A stretch of 64,000 bases of DNA. Origin: Maylandia zebra. Lineage: Eukaryota; Chordata; Actinopteri; Cichliformes; Cichlidae. The stretch is from NCBI RefSeq assembly GCF_041146795.1, contig NC_135183.1:14112840-14176839 (forward strand). Direction: 5' to 3'. Positions 5,069-60,912 of the stretch are shown in pieces (the first letter of the stretch is position 1; each line of letters starts with the position of its first letter). Both the position numbers and the translations under genes were made by a program. The notes under the pieces are model-generated. The model searched no databases, was not told the origin of the DNA, and saw only the letters and a list, made by a program, of their open reading frames with translations.

Positions 5069-6617
5069 ATGATGAAGCTGATTCTTTCCCTGACTCTCTT
5101 CTGGGCACTCTGCAGCACAGGTACATCATCTTGTTCTTAAATTTAGACTTCTCCAAAAATGTAAGGACTTAAACGTTTTTACTTCTGCAGAAAACATTTT
5201 TTAAAAGGGAATATAAATGTTATCCTGACTAATTATGAACTGACTTCAAATCATGCTTCTAAGCACTATTTAAGGAGTTAGCCTATTTTTGCTCACCATT
5301 ATTGCACGTTATGTATTGCAAGATCCCTTAAAGCCTTTCAACCAATAAAGCAAAACCCAGCTATCTTCATGAATGTGAATGAAAATGTGATCACAATTTC
5401 ACTTTTTTTTTCACAGCGGGAGCCCTTCAGTGTTTAACCTGCAAAGATGTGACATGTTTAACGACAAACCCAGTTAAGTGCACTATAGAGAAGGCGTGTG
5501 TGACATCTTCTATTCTAGGTAGTCTCTTCTTTATTCCATCTTTTACTTTTCAGTGAGCATACATGTACTGGGAGGTTACATCAATGTTAACAAACTCCAC
5601 TTTGATTCTGCAGTGACATCGTCTGGAATTAAGGTACCACAAATCATCAGGGGTTGTGCACCAGACTTCGTGTGTCCTGTCTTAGGCTCTCAGACATATT
5701 CAGCAAACCTGGGTATTTTGAGTGCAGCTGCATCTGTTGAATGCTGCAACAAAGACAACTGCAACTTAAACATTTTGCCTGGCAAGTAAAGATAGAGTTT
5801 CTATATGACAAGAAAACACAAGCTAGATAATAATGTCGGAATCCTGCCATCTTCTTGACCTGGAATGTTAAATCTGGTCACTGTAATGTTTTCTGTTTTT
5901 GAAAAAGATTTTCATTCCTATTTCAGTCCCTGCAGATCAGACCGAGAACAATCTGAAGTGTTTTTCATGTGACCCCGGCTCCACTCAGTGTAACTCTACA
6001 GTGAAGTGTAGTGGAGTAGAGAATCGCTGCTTTCAAGCATTTGGTAATTCTCTTCAAACCTGTTTTGCTACCTTGAAATGTTTATACAAATTTGTGTTTT
6101 TGTAATATGAAAAATGAAACATCAACAAAAGGAAAAAAAAGCATTATATTACATACAACTTCAAGATATTCTGTTATTTGAGTCATATTATGAGTCACTA
6201 TTACACTGACGAAATAAGGAAGCTAATTTAATGAGACTGCTACGTGAAAAAAACACCTTACAAACCCACTGGTAAAATACACCTTGCTGGTAAATGTTGT
6301 AATTACATGCTGTAGAAGGTTTTTGCTTAAAGCGTCTTTCAATACTTCTTTCTGATTTGAGCAAAATTGTTTCTATAAAGATGAAAAATCTGAAATGATG
6401 ATTTTTATCTACAGTGCCATCAGGTATCAGCACTTCAGTTCCAGTCAAGGGCTGCATGTCTGAAAACATCTGTACAGCAGTGTCCAGCCTGTCAAGTCTC
6501 CCTGTCTTGAATCTTGGGAACGTCAGCTGTTGTGATAACAATTTGTGTAATACTGCTCCAACAACAACTACCACGTTCATCTATCTTATATTTGGACTCA
6601 TATATATTATCTATTAG
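5069..6617 (+). CDS. LU gene A: two-domain Ly6/uPAR-like surface protein
   Basis: Five exons: 5069-5120, 5417-5518, 5614-5781, 5927-6043 and 6415-6617, totalling 642 nt or 213 residues; every junction is phase 1. Exon 1 encodes a signal peptide (MMKLILSLTLFWALCST). Exons 2-3 encode LU domain 1, opening LQCLTCKD and closing ECCNKDNCN. Exons 4-5 encode domain 2, opening LKCFSCDPG and closing SCCDNNLCN; the CC-x4-C-N closure is the family hallmark. A short Thr run (APTTTTT) precedes a hydrophobic C-terminus (FIYLIFGLIYIIY), suggesting GPI anchoring or a membrane tail. The layout resembles two-domain fish genes annotated as uPAR-like or phospholipase A2 inhibitor gamma-like. Ligand and function are unknown. 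Intron 3 must use a GC donor (CCTG/gcaagt) to stay in frame; the nearby GT alternative shifts it. The second of two tandem ATGs may be the start. Neighbour gene B is a paralogue. Confidence 0.8.
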
Positions 6618-8770: not shown

Positions 8771-9381
8771 TGTCATGGTCCTGGGCCGTGTTGGCCCAGT
8801 ATTCTTAGTTCTCTTGTATTTTTGTATTCAGTTCCCTGTTTAGGTTCTGTTTCCTGAGTTGCCCTGTTATGTGGTTCCCTGTGTGCTTTCCCTTTGTGAC
8901 TCTCACCCCCTGTGTGCCCCTCTATGTATTCATGAGCCCTTGTCCCCTTTCGTGTTTTATTCCATGTTTTCCCCAGCCTGTTATGTCTGTGTTCTCCCCG
9001 TGCTCTCTCCTCCTGTCTGAACCTCTGTACTTCCTGTTTTACTTTGACAGTCTCTCGTCAGTATGCGTCATGTTGTGTTCACTCCTGCCCTGTCTCGTTA
9101 TGATTATCTGTGTCAGCTGTGTTCCCCGTGTGCTCCCACTTCCCTCGTTAACCCTCTGTGTATTTATGTCTGCGTCTCCCTCAGTTCTGTGTCGTAGTCT
9201 CCCTCATGCTGCGTGGATTTCCCTGTGTCTCTCTCCAAGTATTAGTTTATTGTGCCCAGTTTAAGTTTTGTATTTTCCTGTCATCTTGTCAGCAATAAAG
9301 CTGCCTTTTGAGTTCATCCCTTGAGTCCGTGAGTTTTGCGATTGGGTCCTCATCCTGCCTGCCACACAGCCGACCATGACA
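8771..9381 (+). mobile_element. Solo LTR, TSD ATTTGG
   Basis: A 611-bp unit with inverted ends TGTCATGGTC and GACCATGACA. It is flanked by ATTTGG on both sides (8765-8770 and 9382-9387). An AATAAAG signal near 9293 fixes the orientation as +. It is the inverted relative of 1484-2088. The cysteine/leucine-rich ORF inside it is not a gene. Confidence 0.75.
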
Positions 9382-9707
9382 ATTTGGTCCTGATTTTATT
9401 CGGAAGTGTCAACTGTTATAAACAAATGGAATTGTCTGAACAAAAAGTCAATTATGGTTTCAAAGTCAAAATTAAAGATGATGGCTTAATGACACAAGAC
9501 GCAAGGTCATTCTCATTTGTTAAAAACTTAATAATGTAAAAAAGAATTCCTGTGTTTTTTGTGATGCACGAATACTTGTTATTGAATTGAAGAGGAAAGG
9601 TGTGGTAAGGTGCTGTGACATAATGATTTGACAAAAGAAGAGTTAATTGCATGAATGGTCATGCTGTAAAAATGTGAACACATGCAATTGTGAGGTCACC
9701 TGTTCAG

Positions 9708-9716
9708 TATATAAAG
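9708..9716 (+). promoter_or_regulatory. TATA box of LU-mucin gene B
   Basis: TATATAAAG lies about 80 bases upstream of the ATG at 9789, with a normal 5' leader between. Confidence 0.65.
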
Positions 9717-9788: not shown

Positions 9789-12700
9789 ATGAAGCTGCTG
9801 TTTTCTCTGTTTCTCCTCTGGGCACTCTCCACCACAGGTAACTACACTCATTTCACCTGCAGGTAGAAGAGATTCTAATTTAAAGCTTTAAATATTTTAT
9901 TTAAATCTTACATTGTAATTTTTTCCCCAAAGTTAGTGAGTAGAATTGACTCAACTGTAACCTGCTGTAACCCAATATGAACTTTCAGAACATCTCATAT
10001 TTGCTATATATTTAAATTGTGATGATCAGTTTTGTGTTTCTCTCCTGATTGCAGCTGGAGCCCTCCAGTGCCAAACCTGCACAAATTCAGCATGTTCAAG
10101 CACAGCACTACTTACATGCTCCTCATCGGAAACAATGTGTGTTACAGCTACCATTCTAGGTAATGTTTTCTTCATATCATATTTCATATTTTCACCAAAT
10201 TACAACTGCTGAGAAGCTATTTGTGTTCCATCAACATTGACAAACCGCACTTTGAATTTGTAGCTACTTCATCTGGAACTCCGGTCACACAAATCTACAA
10301 GGCATGTGCATCTTCCTCCCTGTGTCCAGCCGTAACCTCTCAGACATTTTCAGTCGACCTGGGTTTTCAAAGTGCTCTGGCTTCTGCTCAATGCTGCAAC
10401 ACAGATAACTGCAACTCAGCAACTCTACCAAGTAAGTTAAATACTACGTTGCTCATCGAAGACAAAAGAATAATATAAAGAAATAAAAACAATAATCTGA
10501 TGTTGTAAGAGTCTCTGTTCTGAAATGAAATGTCCTCCTTTTGTGTTTCAGATCCTGCTTCTCAGTCAAATAATGGTGGAGTATGCAACTTTTGTGACCC
10601 TTCCACTGGTCAGTGCTCCTCCACATTACAGTGTCAGGGAGTGGAGAACCAATGCTTCCAATCAACCAGTGAGTCTTTATGTTGTATCAGTTGTGTCATC
10701 GGTTTTCAATCAAAGATGATTTCAAATTCTTTTGTGATACATCTGACATATAAAAGAGCAGAAACTTTTACCCTAATTTATACTAAATGTTGTCCTTGGG
10801 TGTGAAAGTTACTGTGATAAGATTTTAAATTTCAAGCCTGGAAGTCAGACAAACATAAAGTTTTTAAAAAGCTGTTAAGTTGTTTTTTTTGCATGAAATA
10901 TATTAAGCTTCCTGGAAAGTAGCCAATTTAAAACATATCCTGAAATTCTTCTCTTTGGTCTGTAGTCAAAAGCGGCACCAGCACGTTTCCAGGTTACGGC
11001 TGCGCATCTGCAAACCTGTGTGCAGCTGCTTTAAGCCTGGGTTCTCTACCTTTCATGCAGAGCGTTGGTACAGTATCAGGTGTTGCCTGTTCTGCAGCAC
11101 CAACTACAACTGCTGCCCCAACTACAACCATCCCCCCAACTACAACTACAACCACTGCCACAACTACAACCACCACCCCAACTACAACCACCACCCCAAC
11201 TACAACTACCGCCACAACTACAACCACCACCCCAGGTACAACTACAACCACCACCCCAACTACACTTACAACCACTGCCAAAACTACAATCACCACCCCA
11301 ACTACAATCACCACCCCAACTACAACTACCGCCACAACTACAAATGTCATATTTGCTATATATTTAAATTGTGATGATCAGTTTTGTGTTTCTCTCCTGA
11401 TTGCAGCTGGAGCCCTCCAGTGCCAAACCTGCACAAATTCAGCATGTTCAAGCACAGCACTACTTACATGCTCCTCATCGGAAACAATGTGTGTTACAGC
11501 TACCATTCTAGGTAATGTTTTCTTCATATCATATTTCATATTTTCACCAAATTACAACTGCTGAGAAGCTATTTGTGTTCCATCAACATTGACAAACCGC
11601 ACTTTGAATTTGTAGCTACTTCATCTGGAACTCCGGTCACACAAATCTACAAGGCATGTGCATCTTCCTCCCTGTGTCCAGCCGTAACCTCTCAGACATT
11701 TTCAGTCGACCTGGGTTTTCAAAGTGCTCTGGCTTCTGCTCAATGCTGCAACACAGATAACTGCAACTCAGCAACTCTACCAAGTAAGTTAAATACTACG
11801 TTGCTCATCGAAGACAAAATAATAATATAAAGAAATAAAAACAATAATCTGATGTTGTAAGAGTCTCTGTTCTGAAATGAAATGTCCTCCTTTTGTGTTT
11901 CAGATCCTGCTTCTCAGTCAAATAATGGTGGAGTATGCAACTTTTGTGACCCTTCCACTGGTCAGTGCTCCTCCACATTACAGTGTCAGGGAGTGGAGAA
12001 CCAATGCTTCCAATCAACCAGTGAGTCTTTATGTTGTATCAGTTGTGTCATCGGTTTTCAATCAAAGATGATTTCAAATTCTTTTGTGATACATCTGACA
12101 TATAAAAGAGCAGAAACTTTTACCCTAATTTATACTAAATGTTGTCCTTGGGTGTGAAAGTTACTGTGATAAGATTTTAAATTTCAAGCCTGGAAGTCAG
12201 ACAAACACATAAACTTTTTAAAAAGCTGTTAAGTTGTTTTTTGCATGAAATATATTAAGCTTCCTGGAAAGTAGCCAATTTAAAACATATCCTGAAATTC
12301 TTCTTTTTGATCTGCAGTCAAAAGCGGCACCAGCACGTATCCAGGTTACGGCTGCGCATCTGCAAACCTGTGTGCAGCTGCTTTAAGCCTGGGTTCTCTA
12401 CCTTTCATGCAGAGCGTTGGTACAGTATCAGGTGTTGCCTGTTCTGCAGCACCAACTACAACTGCTGCCCCAACTACAACCATCCCCCCAACTACAACTA
12501 CAACCACTGCCACAACTACAACAACCACCCCAACTACAACCACCACCCCAACTACAACTACCGCCACAACTACAACCACCACCCCAGGTACAACTACAAC
12601 CACCACCCCAACTACACTTACAACCACTGCCAAAACTACAATCACCACCCCAACTACAACCACCACCCCAACTACAACTACCGCCACAACTACAAATGTC

Positions 12701-15700
12701 ATATTTGCTATATATTTAAATTGTGATGATCAGTTTTGTGTTTCTCTCCTGATTGCAGCTGGAGCCCTCCAGTGCCAAACCTGCACAAATTCAGCATGTT
12801 CAAGCACAGCACTACTTACATGCTCCTCATCGGAAACAATGTGTGTTACAGCTACCATTCTAGGTAATGTTTTCTTCATATCATATTTCATATTTTCACC
12901 AAATTACAACTGCTGAGAAGCTATTTGTGTTCCATCAACATTGACAAACCGCACTTTGAATTTGTAGCTACTTCATCTGGAACTCCGGTCACACAAATCT
13001 ACAAGGCATGTGCATCTTCCTCCCTGTGTCCAGCCGTAACCTCTCAGACATTTTCAGTCGACCTGGGTTTTCAAAGTGCTCTGGCTTCTGCTCAATGCTG
13101 CAACACAGATAACTGCAACTCAGCAACTCTACCAAGTAAGTTAAATACTACGTTGCTCATCGAAGACAAAAGAATAATATAAAGAAATAAAAACAATAAT
13201 CTGATGTTGTAAGAGTCTCTGTTCTGAAATGAAATGTCCTCCTTTTGTGTTTCAGATCCTGCTTCTCAGTCAAATAATGGTGGAGTATGCAACTTTTGTG
13301 ACCCTTCCACTGGTCAGTGCTCCTCCACATTACAGTGTCAGGGAGTGGAGAACCAATGCTTCCAATCAACCAGTGAGTCTTTATGTTGTATCAGTTGTGT
13401 CATCGGTTTTAGATCAAAGATGATTTCAAATTCTTTTGTGATACATCTGACATATAAAAGAGCGGAAACTTTTACCCTAATTTATACTAAATGTTATCCT
13501 TGGGTGTGAAAGTTACTGTGATAAGATTTTAAATTTCAAGCCTGGAAGTCAGACAAACATAAAGTTTTTAAAAAGCTGTTAAGTTGTTTTTTTTGCATGA
13601 AATATATTAAGCTTCCTGGAAAGTAGCCAATTTAAAACATATCCTGAAATTCTTCTCTTTGGTCTGTAGTCAAAAGCGGCACCAGCACGTTTCCAGGTTA
13701 CGGCTGCGCATCTGCAAACCTGTGTGCAGCTGCTTTAAGCCTGGGTTCTCTACCTTTCATGCAGAGCGTTGGTACAGTATCAGGTGTTGCCTGTTCTGCA
13801 GCACCAACTACAACTGCTGCCCCAACTACAACCATCCCCCCAACTACAACTACAACCACTGCCACAACTACAACCACCACCCCAACTACAACCACCACCT
13901 CAACTACAACTACCGCCACAACTACAACCACCACCCCAGGTACAACTACAACCACCACCCCAACTACACTTACAACCACTGCCAAAACTACAATCACCAC
14001 CCCAACTACAATCACCACCCCAACTACAACTACCGCCACAACTACAAATGTCATATTTGCTATATATTTAAATTGTGATGATCAGTTTTGTGTTTCTCTC
14101 CTGATTGCAGCTGGAGCCCTCCAGTGCCAAACCTGCACAAATTCAGCATGTTCAAGCACAGCACTACTTACATGCTCCTCATCGGAAACAATGTGTGTTA
14201 CAGCTACCATTCTAGGTAATGTTTTCTTCATATCATATTTCATATTTTCACCAAATTACAACTGCTGAGAAGCTATTTGTGTTCCATCAACATTGACAAA
14301 CCGCACTTTGAATTTGTAGCTACTTCATCTGGAACTCCGGTCACACAAATCTACAAGGCATGTGCATCTTCCTCCCTGTGTCCAGCCGTAACCTCTCAGA
14401 CATTTTCAGTCGACCTGGGTTTTCAAAGTGCTCTGGCTTCTGCTCAATGCTGCAACACAGATAACTGCAACTCAGCAACTCTACCAAGTAAGTTAAATAC
14501 TACGTTGCTCATCGAAGACAAAAGAATAATATAAAGAAATAAAAACAATAATCTGATGTTGTAAGAGTCTCTGTTCTGAAATGAAATGTCCTCCTTTTGT
14601 GTTTCAGATCCTGCTTCTCAGTCAAATAATGGTGGAGTATGCAACTTTTGTGACCCTTCCACTGGTCAGTGCTCCTCCACATTACAGTGTCAGGGAGTGG
14701 AGAACCAATGCTTCCAATCAACCAGTGAGTCTTTATGTTGTATCAGTTGTGTCATCGGTTTTCAATCAAAGATGATTTCAAATTCTTTTGTGATACATCT
14801 GACATATAAAAGAGCAGAAACTTTTACCCTAATTTATACTAAATGTTGTCCTTGGGTGTGAAAGTTACTGTGATAAGATTTTAAATTTCAAGCCTGGAAG
14901 TCAGACAAACACATAAACTTTTTAAAAAGCTGTTAAGTTGTTTTTTGCATGAAATATATTAAGCTTCCTGGAAAGTAGCCAATTTAAAACATATCCTGAA
15001 ATTCTTCTTTTTGATCTGCAGTCAAAAGCGGCACCAGCACGTATCCAGGTTACGGCTGCGCATCTGCAAACCTGTGTGCAGCTGCTTTAAGCCTGGGTTC
15101 TCTACCTTTCATGCAGAGCGTTGGTACAGTATCAGGTGTTGCCTGTTCTGGTGCCCCAACTATAACCACCACCCCAACTACAACCACCACCCCAACAACA
15201 ACCACCACAGCCACAACTACAACTACAACCACTGGAACAACTATAACCACCACCCCAGCTACAACTACAACCACCACCCCAACTACAACTACAACCACCA
15301 CCCCAACTACAACCACCACCCCAACGACAACTACAACCACCACCCCAACTACAACCACCACCCCAACTACAACTACAACTACCACCCCAGCTACAACTAC
15401 AACCACCGCCCCAACTACAACTACAACCACCACCCCAGCTACAATTACAACCACCGCCCCAACTACAACTACAACCACCATCCCAACTACAACTACCGCC
15501 CCAACTGCAACGACCACCCCAACTAAAACTACAATCACCACCCCAGCTACAACTACAACCACCGCTACAACCACCACCCCAACTACAACTGCAACCACCA
15601 CCCCAACTACAACTACAACCACTGCCACAACTACAACCACCACCCCAGCTACGACTACAACCTCCACCCAAGCTACAACTACAACCACCACCCCAACTAC

Positions 15701-18700
15701 AACTACAACCACCGCCCCAACTACAACTACAACCACCATCCCAACAACAAGTACCGCCACAACTACAACCACCACCCCAACTACAACTACAACCACCGCC
15801 CCAGGTACAACTACAACCACCGCCCTAACTACAACTACAACCACCGCCCCAGCTACAACTACAACCACCACCCCAACTACAACTACCGCCACAACTACTA
15901 CCACCACCCCAACTACAGCCACCACCCCAACTACAACACCAACCACCACTCCAACTACAACTACAACCACTGCCCCAACTACAACTACAACCACAATCCC
16001 AACAACAAGTACCGCCACAACTACAACCACCGCCATAACTACAACCACCACCCCAACTACAACTACAACCACCACCCCAGCTACAACTACAACCACTGCC
16101 CCAACTACAACTACAACCACCATCCCAACAACAAGTACCGCCACAACTACAACCACCACCCCAACTACAACTACAACCACCACCCCAACTACAGCCACCA
16201 CCCCAACTACAACACCAACCACCACCCCAACTACAACTACAACCACTGCCCCAACTACAACTACAACCACCATCCCAACAACAAGTACCGCCACAACTAC
16301 AACCACCACCCCAACTACAACTACAACCACCACCCCAACTACAGCTACAACCACCACCCCAGCTACAACTACAACCACCGCCCCAGCTACAGCTACAACC
16401 ACCACCCCAACTACAACTACCGCCACAACTACAACCACCACCCCAACTACAGCCACCACCCCAACTACAACACCAACCACCACCCCAACTACAACTACAA
16501 CCACTGCCCCAACTACAACTACAACCACTGCTAAAACAACAACCTCCACCCTAACTACAACTACAACCACCACCCCAACTACAACTACAATCACCGCCCC
16601 AGTTACAACTACAACCACCACCCCAACTACAACTACAACCACTACCCCAGCTACAACCACCACCCCAACTACAACTACAATCATCGCCCCAGCTACAACT
16701 ACAACCACCACCCCAACTACAAGTACTGCCACAACTACAACCACCACCCCAACTATAACAACATCCACCACCCCAGCTACAACTACAAACACCAACCCAA
16801 CTACAAGTACCGCCACAACTACAATCACCACCCCAACTACCACTACAACCACCAACTCAACTAAAACTACAACCACCACCCCAACTACAACTACAACCAC
16901 TGCCACAAGTACAACCTCCACCCCAACTACAACTACAACCATCACCCCAACTTCAAGTATCGCCACAACCACCACCACCACCCCAACTACAACTACAATC
17001 ACCGCCCCAGCTACAACTAAAACCACCACTACAACTACAACCACCACCCCAACTACATTTACAACCACCGCCCCAACTACAACTACAACCACCATCCCAA
17101 CTACAAGTACCGCCAATACTACAACCACCACCCCAACTACAACCACCACCCCAACTACAACTACTGCCCCAACTACAACCACCACCCCAACTACAACAAA
17201 AACCACGACCCCAGCTACAACTACAACCACCACCCCAACTACAACTTCAACCACTGCCCCAACTACAAGTACCGCCACAACTACAACCACCACCCCAACT
17301 ACAACTGCAACGACTACCCCAACTACAACTAAAACCACTGCCACAACAACAACCTCCACCCCAACTACAACCACCACCCCAACTACAACTACAACCACCG
17401 CCACAACTACAACCACCACCCCAACTACAACTACAACCACCATCCCAACTACAAGTACCGCCACGACTATAACCTCCACCCCAACTACAACTACAATCAC
17501 CGCCCCAGTTACAACTACAACCACTACCCCAACTACAACTACCGCCACAACTACAACCACCACCCCAACTACAACAACAACCACCACCCCAACTACAACT
17601 ACAACCACTACCCCAGCTACAACTACAACCTCCACCCAAGCTACAACTACAACCACCCCCCCAACTACAACTACAACCACCACCCCATCTACGACTACAA
17701 CCACCGCTATACCTATAACCACCACCCCAACTACAACTACAACCACCGCCCCAACTACAACTACAACCACCATCCCAACTACAAGTACCGCCACAACTAC
17801 AACCACCACCCCAACTACAACTACAACCACAACCCCAACTACAACTACAACCACCGCCCCAACTACATCCACAACCACCATCCCAACTACAAGTACCGCC
17901 ACAACTACAACCACCACCCCAACTACAACTACAACCACCACCCCAACTACAACTACAACCACCGCCCCAACTACAACTACAACTACCGCCACAACCACCA
18001 CCCCAACTACAAGTACCGCCGCAACTACAACCACCACCCCAACAACAAGTACCGCCACAACTACAACCACCACCCCAGCTACAACTACAACCACCACCCC
18101 AACTACAACTACAACAACTGCCACAAGTACAACCTCCACCCCAACAACAACTACAACCATCACCCCAACTACAACTACAACCACCACCCCAACTACAACA
18201 AAAACCACCACCCGAGCTATAACTACAACTACTACCCCAACTACAACAACAACCACTACCCCAACTACAACCACCACCCCAACTACAACTACAACCACTA
18301 CCCCAGCTACAACAACAACAACCACCCCAGCTACAACTACAACCACCACCCCAACTACAACTACAACCACCACCCCAGCTACAACTACAACCACCACCCC
18401 AGCTACAACTACAACCACCACCCCAACTACAAGTACCGCCACAACTACAACCACCACCCCAACTACAAGTACCGCTACAACTACAACCACTATCCTAACT
18501 ACAACTACAACCACCGCTACAACTACAACCACCACCCCAACTACAACTACAACCACCACCCCAGCTACAACTACAACCACCACCCCAACTACAACTACAA
18601 CCACCACCCCAGCTACAACTACAACCACCACCCCAACTACAACTACAACTACCGCCACAACTAAAACTACAGCCACCACCCCAACTACAACTACAACCAC

Positions 18701-19499
18701 CGCCACAACTACAACCACCACCCCAGCTACAACTACAACCACCACCCCAACTACAACTACAACCACCACCCCAACTACAAGTACCGCCACAACTACAACC
18801 ACCACCCCAACTACAAGTACCGCTACAACTACAACCACTATCCCAACTACAACTACAACCACCGCTACAACTACAACCACCACCCCAGCTACAACTACAA
18901 CCACCACCCCAACTACAACTACAACTACCGCCACAACTAAAACTACAGCCACCACCCCAACTACAACCACTGCCAAAACTACAACCTCCACCCCAACTAC
19001 AACTACAACCACCCCCCCAACTACAAGTACCGCCAAAACTACAACCACCACCCCAACTACAACTACAATCACCGCCCCAGCTACAACTATAACCACCACC
19101 CCAACTACAACTACAACCACCGCCCCAACTACAACTACAACCACTGCCAAAACTACAACCTCCACCCCAACTACAACTACAACCACCACCCCAACTACAA
19201 GTAACGCCACAACTACAACCACCACCCCAACTACAACTACAATCACCGCCCCAGCTACAACTATAACCACCACCCCAACTACAACTACTGCCACAACTAA
19301 AACCACCACCCCAACTATAAGTACCGCCACAACTACAACCACCACCCCAACTACAAGTACCGCCACAACTATAAGCTCTGCAGCTACAACTGCTACATCA
19401 ACTGCAACAACTGCCTCTACAACCAAAAGTGATGCTTGTTCTATCAGACTGGGAATGTTCCATCTGCTGCTTGGACTCCTTCTCTTTACCTTTCATTAA
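9789..19499 (+). CDS. LU gene B: giant multi-LU mucin-type protein (tandemly expanded paralogue of gene A)
   Basis: Exon 1 (9789-9837) encodes a signal peptide (MKLLFSLFLLWALSTT). Exons 2, 3 and 4 (10055-10159, 10264-10431, 10552-10668) match gene A exon for exon, all phase 1. From exon 5 (acceptor before 10966) the reading frame runs through a Thr/Pro linker, then through a remnant of intron 1, into the next exon 2, ending at 11511. This fused exon recurs at 12318-12863 and 13670-14215. Exons 3 and 4 repeat at +1352, +2704 and +4056. The last exon (15022-19499) carries the mucin domain and ends SDACSIRLGMFHLLLGLLLF, a GPI/membrane-type tail. The model is 7,410 nt, 2,469 residues, eight LU modules. 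LU1 keeps QCCNTDNCN; LU2 ends VACS-AAPTTT and lacks the family closure. Probably an extracellular glycoprotein; function unknown. Alternative splicing or assembly collapse could change the copy number used. Confidence 0.6.
9996..11347 (+). repeat. Tandem unit 1 (1352 bp), type alpha
   Basis: Runs from the end of intron 1 through exons 2-5 into the Thr-rich linker. Type-alpha markers: acceptor TGTAG before exon 5, CACGTTTCCAGG, and eight T residues in intron 4. Confidence 0.9.
11348..12699 (+). repeat. Tandem unit 2 (1352 bp), type beta
   Basis: Exact 1352-bp offset from unit 1. Type-beta markers: acceptor CTGCAG before exon 5, CACGTATCCAGG, ACACATAAAC and six T residues in intron 4. Its start junction joins linker ACTACAAATGT to intron-1 sequence CATATTTGC. 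Confidence 0.9.
12700..14051 (+). repeat. Tandem unit 3 (1352 bp), type alpha
   Basis: Carries the alpha markers of unit 1, with a few private substitutions (for example GGTTTTAGATC in intron 4). Confidence 0.9.
14052..15150 (+). repeat. Tandem unit 4, type beta, continuing into the terminal mucin exon
   Basis: Carries the beta markers of unit 2 up to the end of LU2. It then runs into the long mucin array instead of the short linker. Confidence 0.9.
15151..19380 (+). repeat. Mucin-coding minisatellite array
   Basis: About 4.2 kb of degenerate 24-bp (TTTTTTTP) and 36-bp (with STAT) units built from ACN codons, giving about 1,400 residues of Thr with regular Pro and scattered Ala, Ser and Ile. 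The frame stays open throughout. Such PT-rich tracts are typical O-glycosylation domains. The + strand is almost devoid of G. Long ORFs in other frames and on the minus strand (poly-Val, poly-Cys/Gly) are by-products of the repeat. Confidence 0.9.
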
Positions 19500-21477: not shown

Positions 21478-22254
21478 TTCACTCGAGGCCCAGAGAGGAT
21501 GAATTGGCAGAGCTGAGATCGTGAAACGAGGCGAACAGAGAGCTAGCTCACATGATTAAAAGGTAAGCACGACCTGTTTATTTTCGAACCGTGCATATTG
21601 TTTAAAGCCTAAATTATCTGTTCGCTAAGTTGAACGTATTGCAGTGTAAATTCACTCAGTATGTTAAAGAAACGGTGTGTGATCCGTCTTAGTTAGTAAT
21701 TAATAGCATCGGTGTTTCATCCATGGCGGTGTGTGATCCGTCTTTAGTTATTAGGAAAAAAGTGGCGGTGTGTGATCCGTCCTCGTGCATTAAAGCAGGG
21801 AACTTGTGTTACTATTAGTTAGAAAGCGGGGCTGAAAGGCCTCGTCGCCGGCTGAGGGCCGTGTGCGCTCCGAGTTTGGCAACTCCACCCTTGGTCAGAC
21901 GCGTCCTTGGGATTTGCCGGGGTGGTGACCTGGGCACCGGGGGCGCCCTAAATAACTAAAGCTAGGTGTTGGATCCTAGTCACGGTTGATAACCTGCATG
22001 AGAGTGGGGGCAAGTTGCTTTGTTAGTGAGAGAACGACTGCTTGGCTTGTCCCACTGACTGCGGTGTGTGTAGACTGTGTAGTTGTGTGAAAGCGCCGTT
22101 AGAGTTGGCGTCTCGTCTGAAGCACAGAAGTCAATTAAAGTAACAAAAAGAATTTGTGTCTAAAAGTGTGTGTTTGTGGTATGCAGAAATTGCGGCAGGA
22201 GACCGTGTTGCGAATTGTTGCAAACTGTGAAGTCAATTGGGGGTTTAATTTGGT
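21478..22254 (+). mobile_element. Leader of retroelement A (non-coding)
   Basis: Follows the primer-binding site. It has a donor-like AAAAGGTAAGC at about 21560 and three copies of CGGTGTGTGATCCGTC between 21672 and 21785. No gag ORF is present; the leader is interrupted by the LINE at 22257. Confidence 0.5.
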
Positions 22255-22256
22255 TT

Positions 22257-23740
22257 TACTACAGGCCGGTGGCTCTGACATCCCACCTGATGAAGACCCT
22301 GGAGCGGTTGGTCCTGGCTCAGCTTCGGCGCCTAATAAGCTCATCACTGGACCCACTTCAGTTTGCCTACCAGCCTGGCATTGGAGCGGATGATGCCGTC
22401 ATTCACCTCCTACATCGTTCCCTCGCTCACCTGGAGACCGCTGGAAGCACTGTGAGAATCATGTTCTTTGATTTCTCCAGTGCCTTCAACACCATTCTTC
22501 CCTCGGTTCTAAAGGACAAGCTGGTGAACTCTGGAGTGGACCATCACCTCACTACCTGGATCCTGGACTACCTCACCGACCGACCACAGTATGTGAGGAC
22601 TCAGGGCTGTGTGTCGGACAGGGTCGTCTGCAGTACGGGGGCCCCACAGGGAACGGTTCTGGCTCCGTTCCTCTTCACCATCTACACTGCAGACTTCTCC
22701 CACAATTCCACCCAGTGCTTCCTGCAGAAGTTCTCTGATGACTCTGCAATAGTCGGCCTCATCACTGATGGGGACGACAAGGAGTACAGAGGTCTGACCC
22801 AAGACTTTGTGGACTGGTGCCAGCTGAACTACCTCCAGATCAACGCCAGTAAAACCAAGGAACTGGTGGTAGACTTCCGCAGGCACAAGCATTCTCCACT
22901 GCAACCACTGAACATCCAAGGTATGGACATTGAGGCTGTGGACAGCTACAGGTACCTTGGTGTTCATCTGAACAATAGACTGGACTGGACTCATAACTCA
23001 GACGCCCTCTACAGGAAAGGGCAGAGCAGGCTGTACCTGCTGCGGAGACTCAGGTCGTTTGGAGTGGAGGGCCCACTCCTGAAGACCTTCTATGACTCTG
23101 TTGTGGCTTCTGCTATCTTTTATGGTGTGGTCTGCTGGGGCGGCAGCATCTCTGCTGGGGACAGGAAGAGACTGAACAGGGTGATCCGAAGTGCCAGCTC
23201 TGTTCTAGGATGCCCTCTGGACCCAGTGGAGGTGGTGAGTGACAGGAGAACGGCGGCTAAGCTGTCATCCCTGTTGGACAACATCTCCCACCCCATGCAG
23301 CAGACTGTGACAGCACTGAGCAGCTCCTTCAGTGGGAGACTGCGGCACCCACGGTGTGGGACAGAGAGATTTCGCAGGTCTTTCCTCCCCACTGCTGTCA
23401 GACTCCATAATAAAGACTTTAACTGATCAAGCACACACATCCATACATATGCAATAATACTAAGTGCAATAATCCTTTCTGTCATCGTTGTATTTTTACT
23501 CAGTTGTATATAGTATTTGTATTTGTATTCTATTTTTATCTTATTGTATATTTATTTTATTTTATTCTACTGTATATAGTATTTTATTTTATTCTATTCT
23601 GTACAGTTGTGTACTGTATTTATTCTTATTGTATTCTAATTTTTGCCTCATAACTTTTGCACTGTCCACTTCCTGCTGTGACAAAACAAATTTCCCACGT
23701 GTGGGACTAATAAAGGTTATCTTATCTTATCTTATTTTTT
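22257..23740 (+). mobile_element. 5'-truncated Rex1/CR1-like LINE
   Basis: A reverse transcriptase reading frame to 23426 starts abruptly at YYRPVALTSHLMKTLERLVL. It holds FFDFSSAFNT (RT motif with catalytic Asp), GAPQGTVLAPFLF and FSDDSAIVG (catalytic pair, FSDD for the usual FADD). The C-terminal region runs through VCWGGSI and VIRSASSVLGC. The endonuclease is missing. After the stop, a T-rich 3' UTR ends in TATCT repeats (TTATCTTATCTTATCT), a microsatellite tail typical of CR1/Rex1-type elements. The frame is otherwise intact. The clade is judged by motif resemblance; L2 is the alternative. It interrupts the leader of retroelement A. Confidence 0.7.
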
Positions 23741-28866: not shown

Positions 28867-31800
28867 GTTGCTGCGTGTTGTTCTAAAGTGCATTTAAAAC
28901 AAGGGAGAGCATGGTGCTGCTGCCAGAGAGCAGCAGGTGTTTAGCACGGCCCCTCCCGAGAACCCTCAATGTCTACATGGATTTAAAATTGGGAGGTGGG
29001 CACCAGCGCCAGAGGTAGGTTTGAGTACACAGACCGTCCACCGGACGCCGTTAACGTGCCCACCCTCAAGGCCCTATATATGTGTGTGTGTGTTATGAGA
29101 GTGTAAGTAATGTGGATGTCTAAGTTGTGAGATAAAATATAGGCACAGGTGGCCAGAAGGGAACAGAGGGGGGGGGATGTCTCCCTTGCACCCTTGTGAC
29201 ACACCCACACCCCAAGGCCCTACCTGTGTGGGTGAGTGTGGTGGAGCGGGAAGAGGGAGGTAGCCAGGGATGGGGAGGAAAAGGAGGGAGGGGAGGATGC
29301 CCCTCCCTAGGGCCAGCTCCCCCGCTGACCCCAGTAGGCACCCCCGTCCTCTGGTACCCACCAAGGCAAGGGAGCCCAGGTCCATCCAGACTGGGGCCTA
29401 TGGTAGCACTGCCAAGCCCCACAGGACCCGGGGCAGCCCACCCTACCCCACCGCAGAGGAAACTGTACCCACCCCAACATTCAATCGTCTCCCAGACTAC
29501 ACAAGACAACAAACACCCAGGTTAAGTTTATTCTCCACCTCTCTTATGTCTCTCCCCCACCTGCAGAGTGGACTCCTGCAAGGATGGAACAACCTCCCCG
29601 CCAGTTGAAGAGCCCCCCAGTTAGGCCGATGCACAAGAGGCCCCCTGCGCCAGGGCTGAGCCCCCATGCACCCACCCGCTCACAACCTCGGTGACACACC
29701 GACGAGGACCGAAGCCCCCAAGGCCCAGCCAGAGCCCCAGCATGGAGGCGAAGCACCCCCGAACCCCAAACCCCCACGCCTGCCCCGGATCCACTCAGGG
29801 GCAGCCAGGCCACCAGGCCAGTAACCTACGTCCACCAGTACAGACCATCCTCCAGCCCCGCTGCACGCAGCCACGAGGAGAACAACCTCTAAGAGCGACC
29901 AGAGCCACTAACCAGGGATAACGCCTCTAGGTGTCCTCCAGGCGCCCTAAGCCCGCCCCAACTCCATATCAACCACAGTAGCTAAGGCGGGACCAAACCA
30001 CGACCCCCTACCCCCGCTAGGTGATGGAGCCAATCAAAGGAGCCCAGAGGGATTGATCTAATGTGGTGGCAGAGGCTATATCGAGACTAATGTGATCTAT
30101 TAGAAGGTTTCTATATTGGTTAGAATTAAGGTTAGAATTTTTATTTTTCCAGTTTATGAGGACCGTTTTATTGGCGATGCATAGGGCAGTAAAAACCATG
30201 TGGACTGTATTAGTTTCTGTAGTGACCTCATCCAATTTTCCCAACAAGCATACTAAAGGGGAGGTTGGAATTTTACATTTCAGACACTTTGATAAGTCTT
30301 CACATATCTCGTGCCAAAACTTCTGCACTGGTGGACAGAACCAAAGAGCGTGAATGTAATTGTCTGGTGTATTGCCTTGACAGTGTGAGCAGTTGTTGGA
30401 AGATGTAGAGCCCATCTTGAACATCCGATGACCTGTATAGTGCACTCTATGTAGTATTTTGTATTGTATTAATTGCAGACTGGGATTTTTAATCAATTTA
30501 AAGGTTTTTAAGCATACCTGAGACCAGAAGTTTTGTTCTAAGCTGACTGATAAATCTGCTTCCCACTTTGAAATAGGAAGGGATGTTGATTCATCTAATT
30601 TAGAAAGTGTTCTGTATATTTTAGATAATAATTTGGGGGATTTAAGAGTAAGGAAATGTGCCGCACTTGGTGGTGTTTGTAATTCAACTTGACTGAGGTT
30701 AAATTTCCTTTTTACTATGGATTTAGTTTGTTGATATTCTAAAAATCTTTTCTTGTTGATCCCATATTGTGCAACTAGTCTGTCAAATGGAATAAATTCT
30801 GTTCCATCTAATATATGTTCTAAGTATTTAATTCCTTTACAACTCCATTCTGGGAAATTAATCATATTATTGTTTTGTAATATGTCAGGGTTTTCCAGAT
30901 AGGTGTACGTTTGCATGGGATTAATGAAGACTCAGTTATTTTTAGAAACTCCCACCATGCTGTCAGAGAAAACCTGATGTTGATACTTTTAAAGCATTCA
31001 TGTCTTTTGATGTTTGAGCTAATAAATGGTAGGTCTGAAATCTCTAGATCCTTGCATAGTGCCTGTTCAACATCTAGCCAGGGCTCATCTAAGAAGGTAT
31101 GTTTTAACCATTCTGAGATGAACTGAAGCCTGTTGGCTAAGAAGTATTGGTGAAAATTAGGCAGATCTAATCATCCTCTATCCTTGGTTCTTTGTAGCGT
31201 TTTTAAGCTGATACGCGGGGGTTTATCTTTCCAAAGGAATTTGGAAATATATGAATCCAGAGATCTGAACCAATCTTGTGATGGTTTGTTAGGGATCATC
31301 AAAAATAAGTAATTTATTTTTGGCAAGGTCATCATTTTTATAGAGGCGACCCTTCCCATGAGTGATATGGGTAAAGATTTCCATCTAGTCAGATCGCCTT
31401 CTACTTTCTTTAGAAGTGGGATGTGGTTTAATTTAGTTAAGTCTGAAAGCTTAGGAGAAACATTAATACCTAAATATTTAATATTTCCAGATTGTAGTGG
31501 GGCAGAGGAAGAATTATGGAAGGAGCAGTTAATGGGAAGAACTGTAGATTTTGGCCAGTTAATTGAATAATCTGAAACTCTTGAAAACCAGTTTATTAGA
31601 GTAATTACCTCATAGAGGTTTGTTTGTGTGTTTTGCAGAAAAAGCAACACATCACCCGCATAGAGACTGATTTTATGTTCTATGTTCTTACATTTTATGC
31701 CCTTAATTGTTGTAGCCTGTCTAAATGCTGCTGCTAGAGGTTCGATAAAAATTGCAAAAAGTGAAGGGGAGAGTGGGCATCCCTGTCTGGTGCCCCTCAG

Positions 31801-33061
31801 GAGACAGAAGCTGGAGGATGTCTGGTCATTTGTTCTGATACGAGCTGTTGGGGAATTGTATAATATTCTTATCCAGTTTATGAAAGAGTTTCCAAAACCA
31901 AATTTGTGTAAAGTTGCGAATAAAAATTTCCAGTTAACTCTGTCAAATGCTTTTTCTGCATCTAGAGATAATATTATGGTTTCGATGTTTTTATTGTATG
32001 AGTAGTCTATTAAATTAAGTAATCTACGAGTGTTTGTTGAGGAGTGCCGACCTTTTATGAAACCAGTTTGGTCAGGATGAATTAAGAGGGGGGTCATTTT
32101 CTCTAATCTCTTTGAGAGAGCTTTGCAGATTATTTTAAGGTCTACATTTAAAAGAGAAATTGGACGATAGCTTGAGGGAAATAAAGGGTCTTTGCCTGGT
32201 TTTAGCAGGAGACTAATGTTGGCAGAATTCACATTTGGTGGTAGTCTGCCATTTTCCTCGATTTCCTGCAACATTCCGTGGAATACTGGTGCCAAAATTG
32301 TCCAGAATTCTTTGTAGAATTCTGCAGGGAAGCTGTCTGGACCTGGAGCCTTATTATTGGGCATACTTATCAGGGCTTCCTGGAGTTCACCTGGCGTCAG
32401 TGGCGAATCCAGTGCCATTGCTTGACTGTCTAGTAATTTTGGAAGAGTTACGTTGTCAAGAAACAAATGAATTTCATTTTTAGATGGGTTTATTTGTGGT
32501 GAATATAAAGTTTCATAGAAATCCCTAAAAATGTTGTTTATTCTTCCAGGGTCATATATTGTGTTCCCCAATAAATCTTTAGCAGCACATATAGTTGTTT
32601 TTTCTTTATTTATTTTTAACTGGTTAGCTAGAAATCGACCTGATTTGTTACTGTGTTCAAAATTCGGCAAGCGAAGTCTTTGTATAAGGAATTGTGTTTT
32701 TTTATTAATAATTTCATTTAATTCTAGTTTTGTTTTGTGTATTTTGTTCAATGTTTTCTGATCTTGGTCGCACGCATAGGCTTCTTCTAGTGATTTGATG
32801 TTTTTTTTCTAATTCCTGAATATTTTTGTTTTCTTCTTTCTTTTTGTGTGATGAGAAAGAAATTATTTTACCTCTCATCACAGCTTTCCCTGCTTCCCAT
32901 AGAACAGAAGCAGATATTCCGGGAGTGTCATTAAAGTCTAAATATGAAATCCATTCCTTTTTAAAATATTTAATAAAGTCTTCATCTTTAAGCAGTGATG
33001 TATTAAATCTCCAGTTTTTACTTGGCGTAGTATTATTCTTGTGCATTAGTGTTAAAGATAC
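28867..33061 (-). mobile_element. 5'-truncated fish L1 LINE
   Basis: Minus-strand element: 5' end at about 33061 inside a retroelement-A LTR, ORF2 remnant down to 30017, then a long GC-rich 3' UTR (28867-30016) with GGTGGCCAGAAGG and CCC/GGG-rich stretches. The apurinic endonuclease domain is missing. The 3' end abuts the LTR at 28866. Several proline/glycine-rich ORFs in the 3' UTR are artefacts of its composition. Confidence 0.7.
30017..33061 (-). pseudogene. L1 ORF2 remnant (reverse transcriptase and C-terminal domain)
   Basis: The upstream part (frame open 33097-32714, then 32751-31171) covers the region before and including the RT. It has NNKAPGPDSFPAEFY, SYRPISLLNVDLKI, LSLDAEKAFDRVNW and LLRGTRQGCPLSPSLF in the order of L1 RT motifs. 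The catalytic box reads LYAGDVLLFL (residues 363-372 of the 526-residue ORF), so one of the paired aspartates is Gly. The downstream part (30916-30017, 299 residues) holds the C-terminal cysteine-rich segment CSHCQGNTPDNYIHALWFC. The pieces are in different frames, with breaks at about 31171-30916 and 32714-32751. The endonuclease is absent. Not functional. Confidence 0.7.
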
Positions 33062-41445: not shown

Positions 41446-44400
41446 TCACTTGACAGAGTTTCTCTGCAACAGGAGTATAACTTCAGACACTGGCCTTAAG
41501 TAAAGTTTTGGAACACTGTCTCTGAAAACTTTCACCTCGACCTTCCTGACCTTCCCATCGTCACTTGGAAAAGTCCTTGTGATCAGTCCTGTGGGCCAGT
41601 CATGCCTCTTCAGTGAATTGTCTTTCATCAGAACAACGTCTCCGTCCATGAGATTAGGTCTCTCCGTTCTCCATTTCTTTCGACCTTGTAGACTACTGAG
41701 GTACTCCCTTTTCCACCTCTCCCAGAATGTGTTGGCCAAGCTTTGAACCTGATGCCACTGACGTCTGAAGATATTACTATCATCAAAGTTACCAGGAGGA
41801 ACAGGAAGTACAGCAATCTTCTGAGTTAGCAGCATAGCAGGAGTGAGGATGAGAGGTTCGTCTGGATCTGTGGACACTGAAGTAAGTGGTCTGGAATTGA
41901 CAATTGCAGTTACCTCTGCCATAAATGTTGTCAGGACCTCATGTGTGAGCTGAAAAGACCCAAGCTTGAGGAACATTGCGTCAAGGATCCGACGTGTGAC
42001 ACCGATCATCCTCTCCCAGCTTCCCCCCATGTGTGAAGAGTGGGGAGGGTTAAACAGCCATACACAGCCCTGATCAGACAGGTAGTTGGACACTTCCTTG
42101 TTGTTACAGCCTTTGGAAGTGATCCCAAGCTCTCGACAGGCTCCAACAAAATTAGTACCACAGTCTGACCTTAGCTGTTTGACAGGCCCTCTAACTGCAA
42201 AGAAGCGTCTTAGAGCGTTAATGAAGCTGGATGAATCCATTGATTCGATGACCTCGATGTGTATGGCACGCACGCTCATACATGTGAAGATGATTGCCCA
42301 ACGCTTACTGTTGGCTAGCCCTCCACGTGTCCTCCTTGAGGTGACACACCATGGTCCGAACACATCCAATCCAACAAAGGTGAACGGAGGATCTGTACTC
42401 AAGCGATCAGCAGGCAGGTCTGCCATTATCTGCTCCTCCTCTCTCCCACGCAATCTTCGACATGTCACACAGTTGTAGACCAAACTGCTGACAGACCGTC
42501 TTCCTCCAACAATCCAGAAACCAGCACTCAAGTGTCGTCCTTGATGGCAGACTTGTTCATGGCAGTGTCTGATAAGCAAGGAGGTAACATGATGTTTACC
42601 AGGCATGATAACTGGCTGACCCTCTTCTGCTGTGAGCTGTGACTTTTTCAGTCGTCCTCCGACGCGGAGAAGACCTTCAGAATCAATGAAAGGACAAAGC
42701 TTGCTGAGAGAGCACTGTTTAGGGACCTGACCTCCCTTTTGTAAGCAGTGTATTTCTTCTGAATAGACCTGCCTTTGGACAGCAAGCAAAATTCTGATCC
42801 TTGCATGATGCAGCTGGTCTGGACTGAAAAGCAGCTTGCAGTTGTGCCAACCATGGCAAGGACCTTCTTTTGCTGCCCTTGTAAAGGAGTAAGCAATGTG
42901 GCAGAGCCTGGCAATAGCTCTGGTGAGTGACCTCCAACTTGAAAATCGCTCAAAGCGTTTACTGCCCAGCTGAAATGACAAATTTGTGGCACAAGTCACT
43001 ACTTCTGGACGTAGTTCCACATCTGTTGCGGGTTCAACTAGGCTGAAAGCTTCCTGTTTTAAGTGACAATGTTGCTTGTCTACAAGAAAGGCTGGTCCAG
43101 ACAACCAGGAGGAAGCTGCAAGCTGGTTAGCTGGAATCGCTCTAGTTGCCTGGTCAGCTGGGTTGACATCAGAAGGAACATAGTTCCATTGGCTTTTGTT
43201 GGTTGAACGTCTGATCCTTTGTACCCTGTTATGAACATAGACGTAGAACCGTCTAGAGTCATTAAATATATACCCAAGCACTACTTTACTGTCTGAGAAA
43301 AGCTTGATGTCGTCTACCTGAATGTCCAACTCTGCAGACATAACCTCTGCCAGTTCCACTGCAAGAACGGCTGCACAGAGCTCAAGCCTTGGGATGGTGA
43401 TGTCAGGCTTAGGTGCCAACTTTGTTTTCCCAAACAGGAATCCAACTTCGCTATGTCCTGCAGCATCTGTGACTCTCAGATAAGCAACAGCAGCAATAGC
43501 TTTGGTAGATGCATCACAAAAGATACAGATCTCCTTGCTCTGAGCTGTGGAGAGTGGGACCATTGTGTAGGCCCTTGGGATCTTCAACTCTCTTAGGTCT
43601 TGAAGAGATGTGCACCACCTCTGCCACTGTTCAAGCTTTTCTCGGGGCAGTGGTGCATCCCAGTCACAAGTCTCAGTGGTGAGTTCTCTCAAAATGAGGC
43701 GGCCCTGAACACTGAAGGGAGCAGCGAACCCCAACGGGTCAAATAAGCTGTTGATAGTAGACAACACACCCCGACGAGTAAAGGGTTTTTCAGCGCAGTC
43801 CACACGGAAAGTTAGAGTATCTGTAGCAAGATCCCAACCAAGACCCAGGCTGCGCTGCATGGGAGGGGAGTCCTGACCCACGTCCAGGTCTTGCAGGTTG
43901 CTAGCTAGATCTTCAGCTGGAAATGCCCTCATGACCTCAACACTATTAGACACAATCTTGTGTAGCCTGAGGTTGGATTGCGCTAGCATGTCTTGTGCAC
44001 CTTTCAGCACTTTGATGGCATCTTCTGCACTGAGGAAAGATTTCAGGCCATCATCAACATAGAAATGTCTGTGCACAAAGCTCCGCACTTCGGGTCCATA
44101 GTCCTCTTCACCCTCCATAGCCGTCCTCTTCAGGCCATAAATGGCCACAGCTGGCGAGGGACAGTTACCAAACACATGAACCCTCATGCGGTACTCCAGC
44201 ACTTTGTCATCAAGTTGGTGGTTACGAAACCACAAGAATCGGAGGTGGTCCCGATGATCCTCCCTCACTAGGAAACTGTGGAACATCTGTTGAATGTCTG
44301 TCATCACAGCCACTGGGTCCATTCTGAAACGCATGAGAACCCCAATTAGGGTGTTGTTGAGGTCCGGGCCTTGTAAGAGCACATCATTCAATGAGATGCC

Positions 44401-44721
44401 TTTGAACTGTGCGCTTGAATCAAAGACGATCCTTATTTTTCCCGGTTTCTGGGGGTGATAGACACCAAAGGAAGGTAAATACCAATACTCTTTGTCAGGC
44501 TCTGGTGGAGGAGCTGGCTCAGCGTGTCCATTTTTGAAAATATCCTCCATGAAATCTATGAAATGATGTTTCATCTCCGGTTTCCTATTCAAGGTACGGC
44601 GAAGTGACATCAGTCGGCTGAGGGCTTGCTCTCGATTATTTGGTAAACGTGGTCTTGGACTACGAAATGGCAGGGGAGCCACCCAGCTGTTGGAATCATC
44701 TTTCTTGAACTCCTTGTTCAT
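41446..44721 (-). CDS. BEL/Pao Pol: reverse transcriptase, RNase H, integrase (1091 residues)
   Basis: RT: IRIVFDSSAQFKG near residue 97, then HVFGNCPSPAVA, and catalytic YVDD at 221-224. RNase H region: FCDASTKAIAAVAYLRV, TIPRLELCAAVLAVELAE and LFSDSKVVLGYI, the BEL/Pao variant. Integrase: zinc-binding HCHEQVCHQG with CVTCRRL, then core motifs GLDVFGPW, LRSDCGTNFVGA and GGSWERMIG giving D, D and E. A C-terminal domain follows with GDVVLMKDNSLKRHDWPTG. The frame is uninterrupted and the main catalytic residues look present, so the coding part may have been active recently. Translation needs reinitiation at the ATGA overlap or a -1 shift from Gag, or else a one-base change has broken an ancestral single ORF. 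Confidence 0.85.
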   Translation of the reverse strand: MNKEFKKDDSNSWVAPLPFRSPRPRLPNNREQALSRLMSLRRTLNRKPEMKHHFIDFMEDIFKNGHAEPAPPPEPDKEYWYLPSFGVYHPQKPGKIRIVFDSSAQFKGISLNDVLLQGPDLNNTLIGVLMRFRMDPVAVMTDIQQMFHSFLVREDHRDHLRFLWFRNHQLDDKVLEYRMRVHVFGNCPSPAVAIYGLKRTAMEGEEDYGPEVRSFVHRHFYVDDGLKSFLSAEDAIKVLKGAQDMLAQSNLRLHKIVSNSVEVMRAFPAEDLASNLQDLDVGQDSPPMQRSLGLGWDLATDTLTFRVDCAEKPFTRRGVLSTINSLFDPLGFAAPFSVQGRLILRELTTETCDWDAPLPREKLEQWQRWCTSLQDLRELKIPRAYTMVPLSTAQSKEICIFCDASTKAIAAVAYLRVTDAAGHSEVGFLFGKTKLAPKPDITIPRLELCAAVLAVELAEVMSAELDIQVDDIKLFSDSKVVLGYIFNDSRRFYVYVHNRVQRIRRSTNKSQWNYVPSDVNPADQATRAIPANQLAASSWLSGPAFLVDKQHCHLKQEAFSLVEPATDVELRPEVVTCATNLSFQLGSKRFERFSSWRSLTRAIARLCHIAYSFTRAAKEGPCHGWHNCKLLFSPDQLHHARIRILLAVQRQVYSEEIHCLQKGGQVPKQCSLSKLCPFIDSEGLLRVGGRLKKSQLTAEEGQPVIMPGKHHVTSLLIRHCHEQVCHQGRHLSAGFWIVGGRRSVSSLVYNCVTCRRLRGREEEQIMADLPADRLSTDPPFTFVGLDVFGPWCVTSRRTRGGLANSKRWAIIFTCMSVRAIHIEVIESMDSSSFINALRRFFAVRGPVKQLRSDCGTNFVGACRELGITSKGCNNKEVSNYLSDQGCVWLFNPPHSSHMGGSWERMIGVTRRILDAMFLKLGSFQLTHEVLTTFMAEVTAIVNSRPLTSVSTDPDEPLILTPAMLLTQKIAVLPVPPGNFDDSNIFRRQWHQVQSLANTFWERWKREYLSSLQGRKKWRTERPNLMDGDVVLMKDNSLKRHDWPTGLITRTFPSDDGKVRKVEVKVFRDSVPKLYLRPVSEVILLLQRNSVK

Positions 44722-60753: not shown

Positions 60754-60912
60754 TATGGGACAACCTTTACTCTGGAACAGAAAAAGCACAGCCAAATGAT
60801 GGCATATTAAATGAACATAAATACAGCTCTAGACCACATACATTTCTAACACCTTTGTATGATTCTTCTGGTATGCTCACCCAGCAGTATTATTTTTATT
60901 AACTTTTCAGTG

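Follow-up and report, generated by a model that had tools for sequence, protein, structure and literature searches.

Within the window (the whole 64,000-nucleotide stretch of Maylandia zebra DNA that was analyzed, C17:14112840-14176839), an array at positions 9789 to 19499 probably represents one gene of a fish LU-LU family, namely, a recently amplified, multi-headed LU-mucin that would probably be GPI anchored and may act on skin or mucosal epithelium. The anatomy of this gene, its open frame, its family and the recurrence of its type in related genes were demonstrated by the analyses described here.

Anatomy of the four-unit gene

A sequence-only reading had proposed four units spaced at 1352 bp, and this was borne out by the positions of the exon-2 acceptors and by comparison of the units. 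Exons started after these acceptors at 10055, 11407, 12759 and 14111, in steps of exactly 1352 bp, and the remaining splice sites of exons 2 to 5 repeated at the same step. Each unit comprised exons 2 to 4 and the start of exon 5 (Table 1); the origin of such an array by chance is far out of reach. In the read-through model, 14 exons totaling 7410 nt had phase 1 at every internal boundary and contained a single stop, the last codon; according to this open model, the coordinates and 2,469-residue length given by the sequence-only reading were correct. A family profile identified eight LU-type domains in the protein, preceding a Thr/Pro stalk and an anchor-like tail, in agreement with the proposal of eight LU modules and a giant mucin stalk in one open frame. 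The stalk was ∼1,400 residues long, with 1051 Thr and 151 Pro among the last 1450 residues of the protein, and the C terminus was hydrophobic (mean hydropathy of 2.15 over 15 residues). Near 15151, at the beginning of its own mucin stalk, unit 4 ceased to match units 1 to 3. Exon 1 and the anchor-like last exon were each present once. The interpretation of the array as one gene rather than four was upheld because these two exons are single, a single-unit sister exists and two other multi-unit genes are present in the genome; four separate genes were ruled out by the single exon 1 and anchor exon and by the complete absence of stops between units.

Table 1. Features of the window gene (window coordinates)
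Feature	Position	Strand	Description
TATA-like element TATATAAAG	9708..9716	+	Candidate core promoter, by spacing kept among paralogs
Exon 1	9789..9837	+	Signal-peptide-like, single copy, phase-1 end
Unit 1	9995..11346	+	Intron-1 end, exons 2 (10055-10159), 3 (10264-10431) and 4 (10552-10668), exon 5a, Thr-rich spacer
Fused exon, 546 nt (read-through model)	10966..11511	+	Exon 5a, spacer, 60-nt intron-1 remnant and exon 2; open, in frame
Fused-exon repeats	12318-12863, 13670-14215	+	Same make-up as 10966..11511
Cryptic intron (alternative), unit 1	11236..11406	+	Donor CAG/GTACAA to old intron-1 acceptor; phase 1
Cryptic-intron repeats	+1352 and +2704 from unit-1 site	+	Phase 1
Unit 2	11347..12698	+	Exons 2 (11407-11511), 3 (11616-11783) and 4 (11904-12020), exon 5a from 12318, spacer
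Unit 3	12699..14050	+	Exons 2 (12759-12863), 3 (12968-13135) and 4 (13256-13372), exon 5a from 13670, spacer
Unit 4, shared part	14051..15150	+	Exons 2 (14111-14215), 3 (14320-14487) and 4 (14608-14724), last-exon start 15022
Last exon, 4478 nt	15022..19499	+	End of eighth LU domain, Thr/Pro stalk, hydrophobic anchor-like C terminus, stop

Relevant passages of PMC6600238 describe LU genes as opening with a signal-peptide exon, after which each LU domain is encoded by two exons with phase-1 borders; the window gene exhibited this same layout. Two-LU clusters in teleosts and multi-LU proteins are also covered there. The first LU of the pair matched PF00021 (37.7 bits versus a cut-off of 24.8), while the second matched no Pfam family at E values up to 1 and was recognized through the family profile and fold only. 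The first domain had ten cysteines and the motif CCNTDNCN; the second had eight and lacked the CC...CN end, which was kept in 54 of the 95 relatives having a second LU. No VWD or cystine-knot domain, as expected for a gel-forming mucin of the MUC2/MUC5AC type, was detected in the 193-residue LU part by a Pfam scan covering that part. A fold was predicted, from a 40-row alignment, for P0001, an Astatotilapia protein 98% identical over 99% of the 190-residue query. The model had a mean pLDDT of 85.2 and a pTM of 0.74, with beta domains in both halves, and its top PDB matches were uPAR (E = 5.1e-07), then C4.4A, TEX101 and, more weakly, CD177 (E = 0.0077). TM-scores by query length were 0.28 to 0.53 among the 30 matches with E up to 0.001, so that the modeled placing of the domains relative to each other is provisional.

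Junctions between units and related genes in the genome

The sequence-only reading had the junctions preserve the frame and all exon boundaries in phase 1, which they do. The junctions do not join exon directly to exon: 60 nt of old intron 1 intervened between each spacer and the next exon 2 (11347-11406, 12699-12758 and 14051-14110). A 35-bp word spanning the junction occurred exactly three times in the whole 962-Mb assembly, each time in the window array. Intron 1 is 217 nt long and its last 94 nt are open in the exon-2 frame; hence, ∼14% of uniformly placed intron-1 breakpoints would give an open, in-frame junction, and openness of the remnant was discarded as strong evidence. The read-through linker contained two additional cysteines and a moderate hydrophobic peak (1.56 over 19 residues), odd features for a spacer that count against the favored one-gene reading.

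The remnant would be either coding by read-through or spliced out by a weak in-phase cryptic donor. This donor fitted six of the nine donor consensus positions, while the normal donors fitted 8, 6, 8 and 7. Two more in-phase sites in the same exon (10993 and 11080), both inside the second LU domain, also scored 6/9. Open outputs other than the read-through product were obtained with the cryptic donors (2298 aa), with skipping of exon 5a (2028 aa) and with exon 1 joined to unit 4 (1638 aa).

Eleven stretches of the genome were fetched for comparison, copy counts from the genome search being lower bounds. A complete single-unit sister (L009, 459 aa) with the same anchor-like tail was located ∼59 kb downstream of the window gene and was 92 to 99% identical to it segment by segment. 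A second single-unit gene (L010, 1011 aa) also had this tail, while the tail of a third single-unit copy (L011) was interrupted, indicating that copies can decay. Two further genes were multi-unit. The C4 contig carried two units 2186 bp apart (model of 2331 aa), with the mucin running directly into exon 2 at GCAGCTGGAGCC without any intron; the mucin repeat of this gene also contained CAGCTG, in the same codon register as at the exon-2 boundary. The second gene, at 13.34 Mb on C17, the same contig as the window, had two units (model of 2393 aa) and a junction at which a donor in the mucin sequence must be spliced to the old acceptor, because read-through stops at residue 228. Its mucin donor was as weak as the cryptic donor of the window gene (6/9), and the Haplochromis burtoni protein P0089 had the spliced sequence at this junction point. 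Thus, each of the three multi-unit genes for which models were built from this genome stayed in frame, by three different junction designs in all, which argues for separate duplication events. The TATA-like element was present at about the same place in six of the seven paralogs examined (window gene included) but was not found in L011; its distance to the end of exon 1 was 125 to 130 bp in L009, L010, the C4 gene, the 13.34-Mb gene and L014.

These comparisons bear on whether the array, while real, yields mature transcripts that are mostly not read-through, either by splicing of exon 1 to any of the four exon-2 acceptors, giving one to four units, or by removal of the remnant from the cryptic donor. 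Such nested isoforms, which are compatible with the one-gene reading, are possible rather than probable. All four intron-1 acceptors were retained with their last 60 nt, the shorter products are also open, and the 13.34-Mb gene needs splicing from a 6/9 donor, with P0089 having the spliced sequence. However, the cryptic donor equals two other in-phase sites and falls below three of the four normal donors, and the intron-free C4 junction indicates that fused exons do occur.

Other LU-LU sequences were observed nearby. Upstream in the window, positions 5069-6617 (+) contained exons of a second LU-LU gene with a stop at 6617; its second LU kept the CC...CN end and was followed by a short Thr run and then a hydrophobic tail, so that it looks like a mucin-less form of the family. 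Four LU-LU copies at C17:13.14-13.26 Mb (L014 to L017) had a near-identical match pattern (exon matches only), with the last exon 2.9 to 4.2 kb from exon 4, and are a recent gene cluster. Intron 2 in unit 1 of the 13.34-Mb gene contained an insert of ∼4 kb (about 4060-8060 of L018), ∼100 bp of which was 73% identical to window positions 9290-9383, just upstream of the window gene. Elsewhere in the window, reverse-transcriptase open frames were present at 22164-23426 (+), 31171-32808 (−) and 50120-52315 (+), the last also having RNase H and integrase C-terminal matches. A retroelement frame of the Pao type, 1116 residues long and matching Peptidase_A17 and DUF5641, lay at 41446-44796 (−) and a Tc1/mariner-type transposase frame of 361 residues, open throughout, at 53880-54965 (−). 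An 885-residue open frame at 60913-63570 (−) had no Pfam match, and the adjoining frame at 59668-60828 (−) had a PB1-like match below the cut-off.

Unit history and related fish proteins

Over 1352 positions, units 1 and 3 differed at 6, units 1 and 2 at 27 and units 2 and 3 at 31, two compensating intron-4 indels accounting for most of the larger counts. Exons 2, 3 and 4 (390 bp) were identical across all four units. The first 1100 bp contained 14 variable columns, none of them in exons 2 to 4: intron 4 held 12, and intron 3 and exon 5a held one each. Nine of these separated units 1 and 3 from units 2 and 4, and at every one of the nine the sister L009 agreed with units 2 and 4. At each of the other five, unit 2 or unit 3 alone stood apart; at one of them, 10792, L009 shared the base of unit 3. 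This split points either to one duplication followed by duplication of the pair or to two two-unit haplotypes joined by the assembler, the latter being the main technical doubt. An overcounted array, produced in this way or from too-short reads and with a true allele of two units, is unlikely. The column pairing is what it predicts, and the six differences between units 1 and 3 are within an estimated allelic range, but the 962-Mb assembly is in 63 contigs, suggesting long reads, private bases occur in units 2, 3 and 4, and the junction word is found nowhere else in the assembly, so that there is no second haplotype copy elsewhere. Under the one-gene reading, the array would have grown recently and in frame in two steps, a duplication that gave two units and a later duplication of this pair that gave four.

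Related proteins were collected by an LU-pair search (84 proteins) and by searches in longer length windows (9 and 5, with two repeats), giving 96 in total. They were mostly automatic predictions, and all those with a recognizable organism in the name were from fish. P0002, from Oreochromis aureus, was 91% identical over 99% of the query and shared the anchor-like tail of the window gene. The closest proteins came from cichlids of haplochromine type, namely, P0001 for the window gene and P0089 for the 13.34-Mb gene. Two or more LU pairs were detected by the profile in 11 of the 96 proteins, from eight species, a share that is not a frequency because the longer-length searches favor long proteins and the nine-protein search scored only candidates sharing most words. 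LU matches numbered 27 in the Gouania protein, 13 each in those of O. aureus and Sarotherodon, 8, 5 and 4 in O. niloticus, 7 in Salarias, 6 in Platichthys, 4 in H. burtoni and 4 and 4 in Pleuronectes; the six matches of P0032 were excluded as split fragments. A 40-residue stretch with at least 70% Thr/Pro/Ser was present in 26 of the 96 proteins and in nine of the 11 array proteins. The two arrays without clear mucin spacers were Gouania P0096 (top 40-residue share of 0.50) and Salarias P0090 (0.60). In P0085, the O. niloticus protein with eight LU matches, the N-terminal part consists of a reverse-transcriptase RNase H domain and an integrase-type domain, and this protein could be either a fused prediction or a real fusion. 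The search for LU and Pro/Thr-rich mucin fusions in other fish, as suggested by the sequence-only reading, was productive, and a domain combination unique to the window gene was ruled out. None of the 96 proteins had the four-unit form in which every junction contains 60 nt of intron 1. Multi-unit growth has apparently recurred in related fish genes on separate occasions.

A tree of 65 units (48 different) was constructed by a quick method with SH-aLRT support only; 17 of its 45 inner branches are open and some branches are long. The window units, L009 to L011, P0001 and P0002 formed one group (99), within which the window units had no supported group of their own relative to the single-unit genes. 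The C4 units clustered (95) and adjoined a Sarotherodon protein whose units also clustered (96), both lying in one set (97). Unit 1 of the 13.34-Mb gene paired with unit 1 of the H. burtoni protein (96) and unit 2 with unit 2 (94), indicating that this duplication is older than that split. Units of the Oreochromis proteins intermixed, while the flatfish units formed one set (100), as did the Salarias units (89) and 12 of the 13 Gouania units (91), unit 1 of the last being apart on a long branch. Gene-wise grouping of units could also reflect homogenization.

The dN/dS values for the LU pairs were 0.22 to 0.46 in eight of 11 comparisons, some on few differences (two for the C4 units). Unit 1 versus L010 gave 1.53 on 11 differences, and two other comparisons were without synonymous change. 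A neutral or decaying array, in which a chance tandem duplication happens to be open and adds no function, is unlikely: the amplification is very recent, random breakpoints would be open and in frame at the ∼14% rate given above, and no Thr codon is one step from a stop codon, but the three multi-unit genes all hold the frame, through three different junctions (out-of-frame cases might have gone unnoticed), intron 4 varies while exons 2 to 4 are identical, and dN/dS between the units of the older 13.34-Mb pair was 0.42 on 27 differences.

Known LU proteins and possible role

The sequence-only reading knew of no described family with this combination. That view was not sustained, as LU-LU proteins, of which many have Thr-rich tails, abound among the predicted proteins of fish and C4.4A is a two-LU relative. 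In the account consulted (PMC7053344), C4.4A/LYPD3 carries two LU domains, then a Ser/Thr/Pro-rich region of mucin type, and is GPI anchored. The window gene likewise has an LU pair followed by a Ser/Thr/Pro-rich region, and C4.4A was the second-best named fold match, but C4.4A has just one LU pair. Its first LU lacks the 7-8 disulfide, according to the portion of PMC6600238 concerned, whereas the first LU of the window gene keeps ten cysteines; hence, the gene was not filed as C4.4A. Fish proteins named integumentary mucin C.1-like, mucin-5AC-like, mucin-17-like, PLA2 inhibitor and Ly6/PLAUR-like had the same signal peptide and an LU pair at 33 to 98% identity.

CD177 is GPI anchored, with four LU domains in mouse and two in human by one count (PMC4839075, as excerpted) and four in mammals by another (PMC6337849, likewise). 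Like the window gene, it gained LU repeats through domain duplication; its fold match was weaker. CD177 is not known to have a long Thr/Pro stalk or mucin spacers. The 2019 survey, in its teleost passages, reported just two-LU genes in the species examined, with one exception, a three-LU gene of Lates calcarifer in which LU 2 and 3 are 90% identical and for which the authors propose a recent intraspecies domain duplication (PMC6337849). This is a teleost multi-LU gene like that of the window, but with one added LU and no repeated LU-LU-mucin modules. No paper on LU-mucin arrays in fish was found among the matches listed from the open-access collection searched. A salmon skin/head-kidney gene list and a sea-bass scale data table each use the name "integumentary mucin C.1-like" in one passage; skin expression was not adopted from such papers, the name being too loose to assign those genes to this family. 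The new part is the recurrence, the combination of LU-LU and mucin being already present in known proteins.

LYPD8, from the epithelium of the colon, is a GPI-anchored, heavily glycosylated Ly6/PLAUR-domain protein that slows bacteria and binds their flagella (PMC5725809, in the sections available). By analogy it offers a possible working model for the window protein, from which it differs in being N-glycosylated; an array of units is not mentioned in those sections. The family as a whole would consist of secretory-pathway LU-LU proteins with Thr-rich tails, probably GPI anchored. The product of the window gene is predicted to be a glycoprotein of the cell surface that bears its three-finger binding heads as four pairs, with Thr-rich linkers between them, on the outer end of a stalk. 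This stalk is presumably O-glycosylated and extended and so would hold the LU pairs away from the cell. Higher avidity would be expected from the repetition of the heads, and the likeliest role would be multivalent capture of microbes or other ligands away from the membrane of skin or mucosal epithelium. A defence role taken alone, suggested because of the LYPD8 analogy and the mucin character, is a tentative proposal with the balance lying against it.

Amplification would work because all modules are bounded in phase 1 and a break anywhere in the mucin region can be accommodated if it is in frame. In the C4 gene, recombination at the shared CAGCTG may have added an in-frame LU-LU-mucin unit, while intron-1 breaks may have been rescued by read-through in the window gene and by a recruited donor in the 13.34-Mb gene. 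It is possible rather than probable that this fish gene family repeatedly rebuilds itself by frame-locked amplification of modules, with breaks rescued in various ways and unit number acting as a valency dial. Automatic names such as mucin-5AC-like, spore coat protein and cell wall protein DAN4-like have masked the family, and while descriptions of LU proteins usually give one to four domains, the predicted fish arrays have 4 to 27 LU matches. These arrays offer a natural experiment on the addition of whole modules to a protein through exon phase, simple repeats and recombination; if the wider reading is true, the valency of a receptor on the epithelial surface would be set by a unit number that changes fast and may be polymorphic.
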